Origin: Caulobacter sp. HMWF025
GTDB lineage: Bacteria; Pseudomonadota; Alphaproteobacteria; Caulobacterales; Caulobacteraceae
Direction of reading: 5' to 3'
NCBI RefSeq assembly: GCF_003060965.1
Contig: NZ_QAII01000013.1
Coordinates: forward strand, 1 to 34,432
DNA length: 34,432 nucleotides
Shown: positions 27,871 through 32,935 of the stretch, piece after piece
Position numbering within the stretch: position 1 is the stretch's first letter
Layout: each line of letters opens with the position of its first letter
Translations under genes and position numbers: made by a program
Notes under the pieces: model-generated
What the model was told of the DNA's origin: nothing
The model's input: the letters and a program-made list of their open reading frames with translations, nothing else
Databases searched by the model: none

Positions 27871-29247
27871 TCAGACAGTGTGGGTCGCTTTCACCCTTTG
27901 CAGCCCCTGTGCCGCCAGCTCGGTGAGCGAGCGCAAGCCCAGCTCGGAAAACACATCGAACGCGCTGGCCAGGGCGACAGCGGCGCGGTCCAGCCGGCCG
28001 TCGTCGCGCCCGGTGATCTCGACGCGGGCCTCATAGAGGCGGGCGAGATTCAGCTGGGCGACGGCCCAGGCGGCCGGGTCGCGCGCGCCTGGACGCTCGG
28101 CCAGTTCGGACTTGAAGGCCATCTCGGCCGCATCCAGCACCGCCAGGTCGGCCGTCAGTTCGGCGCAGCGGGCCAGGCTGAGGGCGCGGTTGTTGGCCAC
28201 CACGGCGCGCAGGGCCAGGGCGGGCTGCACCTTCAGCACCTGGGTCGCCCGGTCATAGCAGGTCACGGCCTGTTCGAAGGCCCGTTCACTGGTCGTCGCC
28301 TCGCCCACGGCCTGCAGTCCGGCCCCCAGGGCTGCCTGCGACCGGGCCCAGTCCATCGGGCTGTGTTCCATCGACAGGGGCTCGAGCGCCGCCGTCAGGG
28401 CCTCGACCCCGTCAGCAATATTGGTCAGTTCGCCGTCCAGCTCGCCGAGCTGGACCAGGGCCGCGCCACGCAGGCCTTCCAGACGCGACCAGGCCAGGGG
28501 CTCGAAGTCGGGGTCCAGGGCGGCGGCCGCAGTCGTCGCCTCGCTGATGGCCAGATGGGCCAGGGTGCGATCGCGCAGACGGATCGAGCAGGTCAGGATC
28601 AGCTCGATGCGGGCCGCCCGCTGCTCGGCCAGCAGCAGCCGGGCCGAGCCGCCCTTGACGCGCTTGGCCGCGGCCAGGGCCCGCAGCGGGGCTTCAAAGC
28701 CCTGCACGGCCGCCAGGGCCCGGTCGAGATTGTTTTCCGCCAGGCCCGCGCGGCCGTCGAGGCCGGCGATCAGGGCCATGGCCAGGCCGCAACGCTGGCT
28801 GGGCGCGGTGCGGGCCAGGGTCAGGGCGGCCCCGGCCGCCGCATGCAGGCCCTCGTCGCCGAACAGGTCGGCTCCCAGGATGGCGAGAACCGCCTGCTCG
28901 CAGCGCGCCGCCGCCAGGGCGTCGGTCCGTTTTTCGGTCTCGAAGATCTTGCCGGCGGCCTCGGCGTGGGAGGCGGCCTTGCGCAGGGCGGCCGCATCGC
29001 CGGACCGTCGGGCCAGTTCACGCCAGACCACGGCCGCTTCCAGAAGGCGCGAGCCCCGGTCCTTGGTGCCGATCCGGCCGGCGGCCACATCGGCCGAGCG
29101 GGCCTCGTTGGTGAGCAGGCGAATGTCGAGCAGCTCCAGCAGAGAGGTATCCCCGCCGGTCAGCCCCTCGCGGTAGGACGCGCCCTTCGACTCCGCTCCG
29201 GTCTCGACACCGAACAGACGCTTCAGATCCCGACCGAACTCGAACAT
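27871..29247 (-). CDS. Helical-repeat protein of unknown function (TPR/SEL1-like)
   Basis: The 458-residue protein starts at ATG 29247 (MFEFGRDLKRLFG), with GGAG ten bases upstream. The rest is Ala/Leu/Arg-rich helices. Several near-periodic segments of about 35-40 residues (for example DALAAARCEQAVLAILGADLF, RAFEQAVTCYDRATQVL) look like tetratricopeptide or related repeats, but I cannot define each repeat with certainty. No signal peptide or membrane helix is present, so it is a cytoplasmic scaffold. The upstream region holds CtrA boxes, so it may be cell-cycle regulated. I do not recognise the gene and its partner is unknown. Confidence 0.75.
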   Translation of the reverse strand: MFEFGRDLKRLFGVETGAESKGASYREGLTGGDTSLLELLDIRLLTNEARSADVAAGRIGTKDRGSRLLEAAVVWRELARRSGDAAALRKAASHAEAAGKIFETEKRTDALAAARCEQAVLAILGADLFGDEGLHAAAGAALTLARTAPSQRCGLAMALIAGLDGRAGLAENNLDRALAAVQGFEAPLRALAAAKRVKGGSARLLLAEQRAARIELILTCSIRLRDRTLAHLAISEATTAAAALDPDFEPLAWSRLEGLRGAALVQLGELDGELTNIADGVEALTAALEPLSMEHSPMDWARSQAALGAGLQAVGEATTSERAFEQAVTCYDRATQVLKVQPALALRAVVANNRALSLARCAELTADLAVLDAAEMAFKSELAERPGARDPAAWAVAQLNLARLYEARVEITGRDDGRLDRAAVALASAFDVFSELGLRSLTELAAQGLQRVKATHTV

Positions 29248-29330
29248 CGATCCGTACTCCGACAAACCGTCCCGCACCGAGACGTCCGGTGGGGTTCAGC
29301 CTGACAGAAGCAAAGCCGGAGCCAACCGCT

Positions 29331-29356
29331 TTAACAAGTGGTTAAGAGGTATTTAC
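29331..29356. promoter_or_regulatory. Overlapping CtrA boxes
   Basis: TTAACAAGTGGTTAA (29331-29345) is a perfect TTAA-N7-TTAA. TTAAGAGGTATTTAC (29342-29356) overlaps it as TTAA-N7-TTAC. This is the site of CtrA, the master cell-cycle regulator of Caulobacter and relatives. Two more TTAACCAT sites lie at 29363-29370 and 29522-29529. The pair is 84 bases from the helical-repeat gene's start, so it could control that gene, the plus-strand gene, or both. Confidence 0.6.
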
Positions 29357-29435
29357 GAGGCGTTAACCATAGATAGTTGGATTTCGTTAACGCGGAGCGA
29401 TTTTTCCGGCGATTTCCGGCATTTGTGGCCCATTC

Positions 29436-29450
29436 TGGCACAGTTCTTGC
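29436..29450 (+). promoter_or_regulatory. Sigma-54 promoter
   Basis: TGGCAC (29436-29441), five bases, TTGC (29447-29450) match the sigma-54 -24/-12 consensus exactly, including the GG to GC spacing. It points to the plus strand with a start near 29462, about 180 bases before the RNase H-like gene. Sigma-54 promoters in Caulobacter drive late flagellar and stalk or pilus genes. An activator such as FlbD or TacA would be required. Confidence 0.65.
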
Positions 29451-29643
29451 CCGCGCCGGACGGCACCTTCCCGACCTTAACCAGCCCGCTTAAGATCCGG
29501 GTCATAGGTGTAAAAATGACGTTAACCATCAAATTTAACACCTCGTTTACTTTTCGTTCTCCAGCAAGGCCCTGAACGCTCGCCTGCTGCCGACCGAAAC
29601 GAAGCAGGCTAGAACGCTCAAGAGCCAACCCGGGACACCCGCC
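29451..29643. other. Leader between sigma-54 site and RNase H-like gene
   Basis: These 193 bases are unusually AT-rich and hold CtrA-type half sites: TTAA at 29477 and 29490 (N9), TTAACCAT at 29522, and TTAAC at 29535. Together with the boxes upstream they make this 396-base gap a likely regulatory hub. I see no credible gene in it. The minus-strand frame from 29652 to 29353 reads through the regulatory sites and has no domain. Confidence 0.5.
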
Positions 29644-30122
29644 ATGTCGCAAGTCACCCTCTGGATCGCCAGTGTCTGCCAGCCCGACCCGGGCTATGGC
29701 GGCTATGGTTTCGTGCGGATCGAGGGCGAGACGCGGGTGGGCCAGGCCGGCGGCGACCGGCGGACCACCGGCGTGAAGATGGCCCTGACCGGTCTGGTGC
29801 GAGCACTCGAATCCCTGGCCGAGACGCCGGCCGGGGCCCTCGTCACCTGAACGTCGCCGACCCCGACACGGCGCTGGGCCTGCGCCGTCTGCTGGCCGCC
29901 GACCCGGAGTTTGCGCCGGAAGACGAGACCGAGTTCTGGGCCCAGATCCTCACCCTGTCCAAGGCCCGGGCCGGCCGCATCGGCGTCGCCGCCCTGCCCG
30001 CCACGGCCCCGGCGGCCGGCTTCGTCAAGGCCTGGGCCGATTTCGGGGCCGATGCCGCCAAGACCCGCGGTGCCTTCAAGGCCGCGATCCCGCGACCCAA
30101 CCTGCTGAAGTTTCCGGTTTAG
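29644..30122 (+). pseudogene. RNase H-fold protein with frameshift and no catalytic residues
   Basis: The first frame (29644-29850) encodes 68 residues aligning with RNase HI strands 1-4: QVTLWIASVCQPDPGYGGYG against the usual QVEIFTDGSC..NPGPGGYG, and RRTTGVKMALTGLVRALESL against [20 protein letters not shown]. A stop then follows, and the next frame (from 29847) continues as LNVADPDTALGLRR to a TAG at 30120-30122, giving a 159-residue protein if one base were restored (ACCTGAAC instead of ACCCTGAAC). The three catalytic acids are replaced: A9 for D10, A47 for E48, A72 for D70. So it cannot be an active RNase H. The frameshift may be real, an assembly error, or a -1 recoding site. Confidence 0.65.
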
Positions 30123-30517
30123 GGCTTCACGGCAGCCGGCGGAACAATCGCAAAGCCCGGCACGGGGGCAAGCTCGACATGGCCGGAGTGATACATGTCC
30201 ATAAAGACCTGCCGCTCCTTCAGCTCCGCAACGGCGCAGGTCACCTGGTAACCGTCGATGATCGATCCGAACGGCCCGAGCCCATAGCTGCCCATCCGCT
30301 CGAAGGCCGGCGCAGCCCCGTCGCCGCAGCGCAGCCGTGCCAGATAGGCCCGCTGCCCCTCGGGCATGTCAGCCCGCACGGGGTTGTCGCGACTGCCGAG
30401 CGGCGAACGGGCCGCGATATTGACCTTGGCCTGCAGCGCCTTGCCCCGCAGTACGCCGCCCGAACCGGCACATCCCGACAGGGCCAGGGCAATGCCCAGC
30501 ACGACGATCATTCGCAT
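30119..30517 (-). CDS. Lipoprotein, unknown function
   Basis: This 132-residue protein has a lipobox LALSGC (lipidated Cys at residue 16). The mature part holds GSRDNPVRADMPEGQRAYLARL, then RCGDGAAPAFERMGSYGLGPFGSIIDGYQVTC with a pair of cysteines. The family is a conserved alphaproteobacterial lipoprotein whose role I cannot state. It is the last minus-strand gene after the paralogue at 30603 (85-base gap), and its stop overlaps that of the frameshifted RNase H-like gene. Confidence 0.8.
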   Translation of the reverse strand: MRMIVVLGIALALSGCAGSGGVLRGKALQAKVNIAARSPLGSRDNPVRADMPEGQRAYLARLRCGDGAAPAFERMGSYGLGPFGSIIDGYQVTCAVAELKERQVFMDMYHSGHVELAPVPGFAIVPPAAVKP

Positions 30518-30602: not shown

Positions 30603-31520
30603 CTACTGGCCCCAGTTGATATTGAAGGCGACACGCCGCACCAGTCGCAGGCGATCCACCAGAGCCAGGGTCGCCGCGATCTGGCCACGCGTGGCTCCCG
30701 GCCCGCCGCTGCGGGGCTTGGCGAGACAGGCCTGCAGACGTCCATCCTCCAGCCACCGGCAGGTCAGGGCTACGCCGGTGGGCGAAAGCTTGGCGGTGGA
30801 CACAGGCAAGGCCGGATCCTTCAACACAACGAAAGTCACCGGGGCATTGTCGACCCGTGTGATGAACGGCCTATCGTCGCGTACCTGAAACGACTGCACA
30901 GAGAGCGAAAACTGCACCTCGGGCGGCACGGGCGGCAGTTTTGCCCTGTAACCCCGGGCAGCCAGAGCCAGCGCGGCGGCCTCCAGACCCTGTCCCTGTG
31001 GACCAGCAGATTGCACGGTGCAGTCGGTGAGGGCCCCGCCGCCCGTGAGGGGGGTAAGGCAGGACAGGCTGGCCATCGCGATCGGGTCCGCCCCGGCCGG
31101 ACGATGGGCCTCAATGGCCTCACGTCCCGGCGACAGAACCGCATCACCGGGGGTGTATCCGTCCTGGACCACAAACCCGACCATGAAATGGGCCGGCCGG
31201 CCGGCCACGGCGGGCAGGACATCGGCACGGACCCGGGCGATCCGGGACAGATTCATCGCGCCCCGGCCGAACCCGTACCCCGCAGGCCCCTCGCCAACGA
31301 CCACACAATCCGTCAGGGCCCCGGTCGCGTTCGGAACGCAGCGCAGCCGCGCCCAACCATTGGCCTCCTCGCGCAGGGCCTTGCTGGGATAGAATTGGGA
31401 CGCACTGTCACCCAAGGGTTCGATCGGCGTATCGCCGGGTGGAGGTCCCTGCGCGAAGGCCGGGGACAATGCCCCCATGCCGGCGACCCATGCCAGGCCC
31501 AGAACGACGATCCGACGCAT
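30603..31520 (-). CDS. Secreted protein with three TonB C-terminal-like modules (copy B)
   Basis: Start ATG 31520 has GGGAG five bases upstream; the 305-residue protein has a signal peptide (to about residue 23). Three repeated modules each carry a Cys pair: C61/C72, C154/C167 and C254/C265. The first two have the TonB-C-like pattern L-x-C...L-T-D-C-x-V with GPAGYGFGRGA and GPQGQGLEAA. The C-terminus is LRLVRRVAFNINWGQ, nearly that of the paralogue at 31979. It is downstream of mgsA (64-base gap) on the same transcript. No TonB-type N-terminal anchor exists. Function unknown. Confidence 0.8.
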   Translation of the reverse strand: MRRIVVLGLAWVAGMGALSPAFAQGPPPGDTPIEPLGDSASQFYPSKALREEANGWARLRCVPNATGALTDCVVVGEGPAGYGFGRGAMNLSRIARVRADVLPAVAGRPAHFMVGFVVQDGYTPGDAVLSPGREAIEAHRPAGADPIAMASLSCLTPLTGGGALTDCTVQSAGPQGQGLEAAALALAARGYRAKLPPVPPEVQFSLSVQSFQVRDDRPFITRVDNAPVTFVVLKDPALPVSTAKLSPTGVALTCRWLEDGRLQACLAKPRSGGPGATRGQIAATLALVDRLRLVRRVAFNINWGQ

Positions 31521-31584
31521 GCCCGCTCCCAAGTTTGCTCCGGCAAACTCGAGTGTTCCGCAGCCTGGATCAAGCGCCCAGGGC

Positions 31585-31978: not shown

Positions 31979-32935
31979 CTATTGGCCCCAATTGATATTG
32001 AAGGTCACCCTTCGGACCAGTTTCAAGTCGTCCACCAGAGCCAGCGCCGCCTTGCCTAGATCGCTCGCTACACCAAGATCTGTTTTACAGTCTTTCAGAC
32101 TTCCATCGCCCGTCCAGCCGCAGTTGACATTCACGCCAGAGGGCGAAAAATCGATCAAATCCCGATGCGGGCTTTTTTCTCGCAAATATATCGCTGCATC
32201 GCCCCAATACTGGACCATTCCCATCGCGCGCAACTCGGCCATGCTCCCGTATTTGGGATCAACCCAACGCTCGGCGCGCGCTACAAGACGATCCTTCCTC
32301 ATCTCTGAAAATGAACCGTTGTTGAGGGTAAACGAAAGTCTGGGCTCCAGAGTCTCGATATCGACTTGATATGCGCTCTGCGCCAAAGCCTTAGCGGCGG
32401 CTCCAAACCCCTGCCCCATCGGACCTTCAGCATCTACGACGCAGTCTCGTGCCAGACCCTTGCCGACTGTGGGCGCCTCGCAAGTCAAGGTCGCCATTCC
32501 AATGTCGTCTGCCCCGGCCGGACGAGCGGCCTCAACAACAGCAAGGCTTGGCGGTCTGACAGGCTCGGGAAATACCTTCGAGTCCGGGACTGAGAACCGG
32601 AACGCCTTGTAGATGGGCTGGCCAACCACCTTTTCGAGTTCGGCCCCATTCAGTGCCACGCGAAGTGCGGGGGCTAGCTTCAAGGCCGCCCAGTCGAAAC
32701 CGAAAGCCGGTGGGTTTACCCCCACGACCTCGCAGTCTCCCAGCGTCGCGTCGGCCTTAATGGTGCACCGGATACGTGCCCAGCCGCTGACCTCCATACG
32801 CTGGGCACGATCAGGATAGTAGGCCGACACCTCGACCGTCGAGATAACCGGCACATCCACCCGCGGCTGCTCGGCGCGAGCTGTGTTTGCGGCTGCCAAG
32901 AGAAGCACGACCAATGCCCGCGCAAGAAACTTCAT
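31979..32935 (-). CDS. Secreted protein with three TonB C-terminal-like modules (copy A)
   Basis: The 318-residue protein has a signal peptide (residues 1-21, ending ARA) with GGGAG upstream of ATG 32935. It has three modules with Cys pairs C57/C68, C152/C165 and C272/C283, the same spacings (11, 13, 11) as in the paralogue at 30603, and it ends [15 protein letters not shown]. Base composition in the middle (about 32080-32420) is richer in A+T than the surroundings, so this copy may have a separate origin or be under less codon constraint. It is upstream of mgsA and downstream of prfC. Confidence 0.8.

Follow-up and report, generated by a model that had tools for sequence, protein, structure and literature searches.

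The region between two divergently oriented genes of Caulobacter sp. HMWF025 combines CtrA-type sites with sigma-54-type promoters, which raises the question of which neighbour these sites control and which activator reads them. We analysed this region within a stretch of 34,432 nucleotides (the window), which belongs to a genome of 3.96 Mb in 176 contigs (labelled G000).

Layout and conservation of the control region

The intergenic control region spans positions 29248-29643. On one side the left gene begins on the minus strand, with its start codon at 29247, and on the other the right gene begins on the plus strand at 29644. The features of the region and its neighbours are as follows.

27871-29247, minus strand: left gene, encoding a 458-residue all-alpha protein of predicted TPR-like fold (translation, alignment, AlphaFold2 and Foldseek)
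29269-29283, minus strand: downstream box GTCTCGGTGCGGGAC, 26 nt past the -12 element of the left promoter, a predicted TacA operator
29310-29324, minus strand: left-facing sigma-54 -24/-12 promoter TGGCTCCGGCTTTGC, one mismatch, conserved, serving the left gene
29331-29345, no strand: perfect CtrA box TTAACAAGTGGTTAA, 6 bp upstream of the left promoter
29363-29370, plus strand: CtrA-type half site TTAACCAT of the proximal cluster, 21 bp (two helical turns) from the TTAA at 29342
29436-29450, plus strand: right-facing sigma-54 promoter TGGCACAGTTCTTGC, no mismatches
29522-29529, plus strand: CtrA-type half site TTAACCAT of the distal cluster, with an additional TTAA at 29535
29608-29615, plus strand: GCTAGAAC, a match to the housekeeping -10 consensus GCTANAWC, immediately before the right gene
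29644-30123, plus strand: right gene, member of a family of about 159 residues, open here for 68 residues (29644-29847) and continued in another frame

The first-pass annotation of the window had described a perfect TTAA-N7-TTAA with an overlapping second site, two TTAACCAT sites and a consensus sigma-54 promoter, and all of these were recovered. TTAACAAGTGGTTAA is the single perfect TTAA-N7-TTAA match in the window (0.04 expected), and the overlapping site pairs the TTAA at 29342 with a degenerate TTTA at 29352. The TTAACCAT sites at 29363 and 29522 are two of three in the window, where 0.14 are expected, and TGGCACAGTTCTTGC is its only zero-mismatch sigma-54 match. This perfect site points at the right gene; the left-facing site and its box are additional to it. 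Sigma-54 matches with up to two mismatches are no commoner in the window than expected by chance (26 seen versus 37 expected), and therefore only the perfect site counts on its own.

On the evidence of sequence comparison, 29248-29643 is a real, deeply conserved control region carrying CtrA and sigma-54 sites, among which the left-facing sigma-54 promoter is the most strongly conserved. In the Caulobacter alignment (29 homologs and the window, compared with 31 homologs and the window in the upstream set), the CtrA box, both sigma-54 sites and the TTAACC half sites stand out from flanks that are mostly unconserved. Retention in close relatives had been set beforehand as the test that could refute the first-pass annotation, and the sites are indeed kept in the main Caulobacter clade. 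Across the genus the outcome is divided: more divergent members keep the left promoter and its box, whereas the right-facing site, searched with a strict or a relaxed pattern, is absent from 10 of 10 divergent loci (L021-L027, L033, L060 and L064). All ten retain the left TTGC and the box, L060 and L064 without the -24 GG. These two loci were omitted from the Caulobacter alignment, the promoter-anchored count and the promoter-spacing count; L021-L027 and L033 were omitted from the Caulobacter upstream set, the alignment and the promoter-spacing count and were checked separately for the right-facing site; and L057 and L061, which have no upstream DNA, were omitted from all sets.

A box at a fixed distance from the left-facing promoter

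The left-facing site lies 62 nt ahead of the left start codon and shows the -24/-12 signature of a sigma-54 promoter, GG-N8-TTGC, in 86 of 89 loci. Upstream of the start codon we found a recurrent box, GTYYC-N5-GRRAC. An alignment anchored on the promoter fixes the sigma-54 anchor by construction, and the version anchored on the box alone is the more trustworthy: it places the end of TTGC 26-28 nt before the box in 42 of 42 Caulobacter-group loci and 46 of 47 Brevundimonas loci. The distance from the box to the start codon, by comparison, varies between 10 and 30 nt. As the spacing is fixed to the promoter and variable to the start codon, the box belongs with the promoter and not with translation.

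The same arrangement extends across the family of the left gene. A profile built from 36 homologs detected the family in 47 of 60 sampled genomes and in 18 of 22 genera. A composite of GG-N8-TTGC, a gap of 25-29 nt and the box reached a score of at least 8 out of 10 in 37 of 42 left-gene loci, compared with 0.33% of resamples (first-order Markov sequences, 50 per locus), a count in which related genomes are non-independent and some loci duplicate sequences of the Caulobacter-group and Brevundimonas count. The spacing is 27 nt in 32 of the 37 loci and 26 or 28 nt in the others, and five of the 42 loci fail the test. Counted by genus, the composite is present at left-gene homologs in 16 of 18, the two that fall short being g27 (two loci) and g18 (one locus, score 7). 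The upstream count omits five of the 47 family members, namely the copy in the window, one located where a contig begins, two divided between pieces and one very weak match.

spmX-type promoters carry the same composite

We located spmX-type genes through their lysozyme domain and scored their boxes slightly more loosely than those of the left-gene loci. All nine Caulobacter genomes carry GG-N8-TTGC followed after 28 nt by a box scoring 9 or 10, and all 12 Brevundimonas genomes carry the composite at 27-28 nt, with two further lysozyme loci lacking it. Outside the family but within the order, four genomes were compared: L141 and L142 have the composite, and it was not seen at L140 or at three loci of G028. 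Lysozyme loci of the family sample score at least 8 in 23 of 29 cases, at spacings of 26-28 nt, versus 0.48% of resamples, and the other six fail; a thirtieth locus, the window genome's own, was read separately.

Searching with the box alone across 17 Caulobacter genomes returned 32 matches, the same number as for the reversed control. Of 30 matches that were read, 13 have a sigma-54 site, all at 26-27 nt, and these are eight spmX and five left-gene promoters; the remaining 17 have no TTGC within 50 nt. In the window's genome, TGGCNC-N5-TTGC occurs at 57 sites (29 for the reversed control), of which only the left promoter has a box (24-30 nt, score at least 8), and therefore no wider regulon is shown. 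The spmX promoter of this genome has a different base before GGC and so falls outside these 57 sites. A broad box regulon was accordingly rejected as a candidate, GTCCC-N5-GGGAC also being rarer than its reversed control (6 versus 36).

spmX is reported as a TacA target (PMC7010744), and its RpoN motif is listed at -26 from the start (PMC4287350), so that the spmX box would fall at roughly +16 to +31. The other named TacA target is staR. Our assignment of the left promoter to the TacA class expresses this likeness to spmX, a box in common at a fixed distance, with the TacA site itself being a predicted one.

Candidate readers of the box

Caulobacter is reported to have four bEBPs, with the GAFTGA motif retained in FlbD and TacA (PMC10274813). 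Sigma-54 activators are present in the window's genome as well: of eight bEBP-family matches, four are full bEBPs, and a GAFTGA-type loop is present in two of these four. The first of the two is FlbD-like and lies on a contig with fliK, and we took the other as TacA-like; the DNA-binding tail of the latter is, by eye, almost identical in the three Brevundimonas genomes compared. Orthologs of ShkA, ShpA, TacA and StaR are reported from Brevundimonas genomes, ShkA and StaR not being found in B. diminuta (PMC5590869). Because there are only two GAFTGA-type bEBPs, and because the box position scores low (5, with no spmX-type box seen) at the sigma-54 sites examined for flagellin and fliK in this genome, the box is more likely to be read by TacA, a name reached by elimination rather than by comparison with the C. 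crescentus protein.

These observations bear on the flagellar interpretation, in which one or both neighbours would belong to the CtrA flagellar hierarchy and be transcribed by sigma-54 polymerase under FlbD. CtrA boxes do adjoin the sigma-54 sites, an FlbD-like bEBP is encoded in the genome, titles cited in PMC3096577 indicate that downstream elements can act at the sigma-54 promoters of Caulobacter flagellar genes, and the right-facing promoter, which has no spmX-type downstream box, could be of this kind. The left promoter, however, has an spmX-type box that scores poorly at this genome's flagellin and fliK sites, and neither neighbour has a flagellar domain, as a gene behind an FlbD class III/IV promoter would be expected to have. 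We consider the FlbD interpretation distinctly unlikely, and the flagellar assignment of the left gene in the first-pass annotation gives way to TacA as the preferred activator.

Another possibility keeps the sigma-54 promoter and takes the box, common to spmX and the left gene, as a repressor operator or an RNA element. The predicted location of the box at about +15 to +31 would be unusual for an activator and natural for a roadblock. In addition, both arms of the box change symmetrically in genus g24 (L302 and L304; GTGTC/GACAC and GTATC/GATAC, with the 27-nt distance unchanged), as they would in a hairpin or in a symmetric protein site. The arms nevertheless vary one-sidedly in both Caulobacter and Brevundimonas, those of the spmX box are poor complements, and no Rfam family matches at gathering strength (one match, E 0.79). 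The arm and Rfam evidence weighs more against an RNA than against a repressor, and an RNA hairpin is disfavoured by the one-sided changes and the Rfam result. Taken as a whole we judge the repressor or RNA explanation unlikely, and we retain an activator site for TacA as the preferred reading.

CtrA-type sites at the left promoter

Genome-wide, TTAA-N7-TTAA has 13 matches and its reversed control has 6. In Caulobacter and in some related genera the left promoter is immediately preceded by CtrA boxes: TTAA-N7-TTAA occupies the slot beside this promoter in 36 of 42 Caulobacter-group loci. From the sequence, the region resembles a CtrA-controlled promoter in that the box lies near the promoter and is kept in relatives. 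In the family-wide sample, TTAA-N6/7-TTAA is found within 60 bp upstream in 10 of 42 left-gene loci, and the CtrA input is therefore narrower than the sigma-54 module. On the right-hand side, the distal GTTAAC lies 70-71 nt past the right TTGC in 29 of 30 regions and 83 nt past it in one. A cassette GTAAAC-N15-ATGGTTAACG (minus strand) is repeated in the two CtrA clusters (29363-29391 and 29522-29550) with equal internal spacing and also occurs in relatives.

No CtrA box was seen at the left-gene homologs of Brevundimonas in the slot used by Caulobacter. Where Caulobacter has its CtrA box, these loci (L068-L114) show an ECF-like GAAC-N16-CGTT that overlaps the left-gene sigma-54 site. GAAC stands at the ECF-type -35 position in 44 of 46 loci and the CGTT columns are conserved at 0.89-1.00; the SigT motif is given as GGAAC-N16-CGTT (PMC4287350), and its first G is replaced by C at a frequency of 0.74. 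A change of input between the genera is possible on this pattern.

The left promoter might also be a CtrA-activated housekeeping-sigma promoter, with an incidental sigma-54 match and the conserved TTTGC lying within a -10 region. Such a promoter would have to account for the persistence of GG-N8-TTGC in genera with no CtrA box in the 60 bp upstream and otherwise unlike sequence, and for its occurrence at spmX; TTTGCT, moreover, matches the -10 consensus poorly. In its favour, the CtrA box is placed as full CtrA boxes are at some activated promoters (PMC4287350), and the ECF-like element of Brevundimonas overlaps the same place. We regard a housekeeping promoter as very improbable.

The right-facing site and the right gene

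The right-facing TGGCAC-N5-TTGC is present, together with the left-facing site, in 30 of 32 Caulobacter regions, L051 and L059 being without it. The two sigma-54 sites are 112-114 bp apart in 30 of 30 regions (113 bp in 25), and some 55 bp of the intervening DNA vary in sequence at constant length, which suggests that a single protein-DNA complex may be assembled here.

Among 42 regions including the window, the right gene accompanies the right-facing site in 30 of 30 (the window copy being frameshifted) and occurs in one of the 12 regions without the site (L051), some of these 12 holding little flanking DNA. The right-facing promoter thus most likely serves the right gene, a co-occurrence that is not strong statistical evidence because close relatives share both by descent. 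A motif scan had indicated loss of the right gene from L036, L037, L039, L040, L044, L056, L058 and L062; tblastn recovered it in all eight genomes, about 0.5 kb further from the control region and with the right-facing site still perfect. We consequently dropped the idea of a right-facing site that serves no gene, and rated the more far-reaching proposal given below as less probable. The gap is filled by opposite-strand reading frames in L036, L044 and, less clearly, L062 or L039 (three clear cases among four examined); in L036 and L044 it holds an opposite-strand frame of 149 residues (MLDLVLA...).

Homologs of the right gene are open over about 156-161 residues in most Caulobacter genomes read, and the frameshift of the copy in this genome, in which 68 residues are followed by the remaining family sequence in another frame, may be a sequencing error. 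No Pfam match was obtained for the right gene. The first-pass annotation had proposed both neighbours as candidates for polar development or motility: the left protein stands as a good candidate for polar or cell-cycle development, whereas we found no tie to either process for the right gene, which remains a possible sigma-54 target.

About 43 nt past the right TTGC lies a GAAC-N3-GTTC inverted repeat (offset 42-43 in 23 of 30 regions and 55 in one; not found in six, the window included), possibly the activator site of the right-facing promoter. A short peptide ORF on the right-facing strand (ATGACGTTAACC, in several genomes) was rejected: by eye, substitutions fall on the first and second codon positions, and elsewhere the cassette recurs with no ATG. 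Beyond the right gene, two minus-strand frames (30603-31532 and 31979-32935) end alike (...RRV.FNINWGQ) and look like paralogs, the former with a weak, sub-threshold TonB_C match.

The left protein

Neither Pfam, its TPR families included, nor NCBIfam gave a match for the left protein, whose best homologs are Caulobacter-named. AlphaFold2 models it as an all-alpha superhelix (mean pLDDT 88.9), and the closest folds detected by Foldseek are the TPR domains of LGN/Pins and Rap, with TM-scores of about 0.4-0.6 and 11-20% identity; the modelled fold is TPR-like. The N-terminus, MFEFGRDLKRLF, is near-invariant in the alignment yet disordered in the model. In G003 (L020/L032) the left gene lies in two frames joined near residue 112 and looks frameshifted.

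A model for control of the left gene

Our data point, with moderate confidence, to a left gene that is controlled by TacA and sigma-54 as swarmer cells become stalked (G1-S), with CtrA superimposed, rather than to flagellar control by FlbD. TacA would bind the downstream box at about +15 to +31, and sigma-54 polymerase would start near 29297. CtrA bound at about -34 to -48 would, in the simplest form of gating, limit firing of the left promoter until CtrA is cleared. CtrA could instead help activation, by analogy with podJ P1, which is reported to carry a full CtrA motif at -49 (PMC4287350), close to the 5' end of the present box at about -48. The left gene would be made together with spmX once TacA is active at G1-S, and is thus probably switched on as swimming cells become stalked cells. 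The right-facing site would drive the right gene, coordinated with the left promoter through the common CtrA sites.

A more far-reaching proposal, which we put forward as speculative and rather unlikely, is that the locus exemplifies a rigid TacA promoter layout in which the activator, docked at a single fixed distance of about 15-31 bp downstream of the start site, contacts polymerase directly rather than by looping from afar. Together with the CtrA array and the second promoter 113 bp away, this layout would make up a single switch, in which a drop in CtrA and a rise in TacA activity yield a sharp G1-S pulse of left-gene expression. The left gene would then be a new component of the SpmX/TacA polarity circuit, present throughout the family and possibly identical with the known spmY.

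The rule that emerges, a sigma-54 core followed after 27 +/- 1 nt by GTNYC-N5-GGGWC, could help to find TacA targets, and the uncharacterised left gene, present in 18 of the 22 sampled genera, is a likely partner in the spmX pathway. If the box is an activator site, it also raises the question of how an enhancer-binding protein acts at the front edge of polymerase. The literature searched, at the level of listings and the openings of abstracts, gave no description of the left promoter, its gene or a downstream TacA box, and part of these findings may already be known.

Comparison with known systems

The closest parallel is the spmX promoter, which, like that of the left gene, combines a GG-N8-TTGC core with a GTNYC-N5-GGGWC-like box 26-28 nt downstream. 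It differs in having no CtrA box directly upstream (130 bp, by eye) and in the poor complementarity of its box arms, whereas the left-gene box is usually a cleaner inverted repeat ending in GGGAC. FlbD-dependent class III/IV flagellar promoters share the sigma-54 core, and some are indicated, at the level of cited titles, to have downstream control elements; none of the flagellin and fliK sites examined showed a box of the spmX type. For the left protein, the likeness to LGN/Pins and Rap lies in the TPR-like alpha superhelix, a resemblance of fold type that implies no common function. Finally, the divergent CtrA-controlled flagellar promoters reported from Rhodobacter sphaeroides (PMC6180460) resemble the present region in their common CtrA sites, although the genes they serve there are flagellar.
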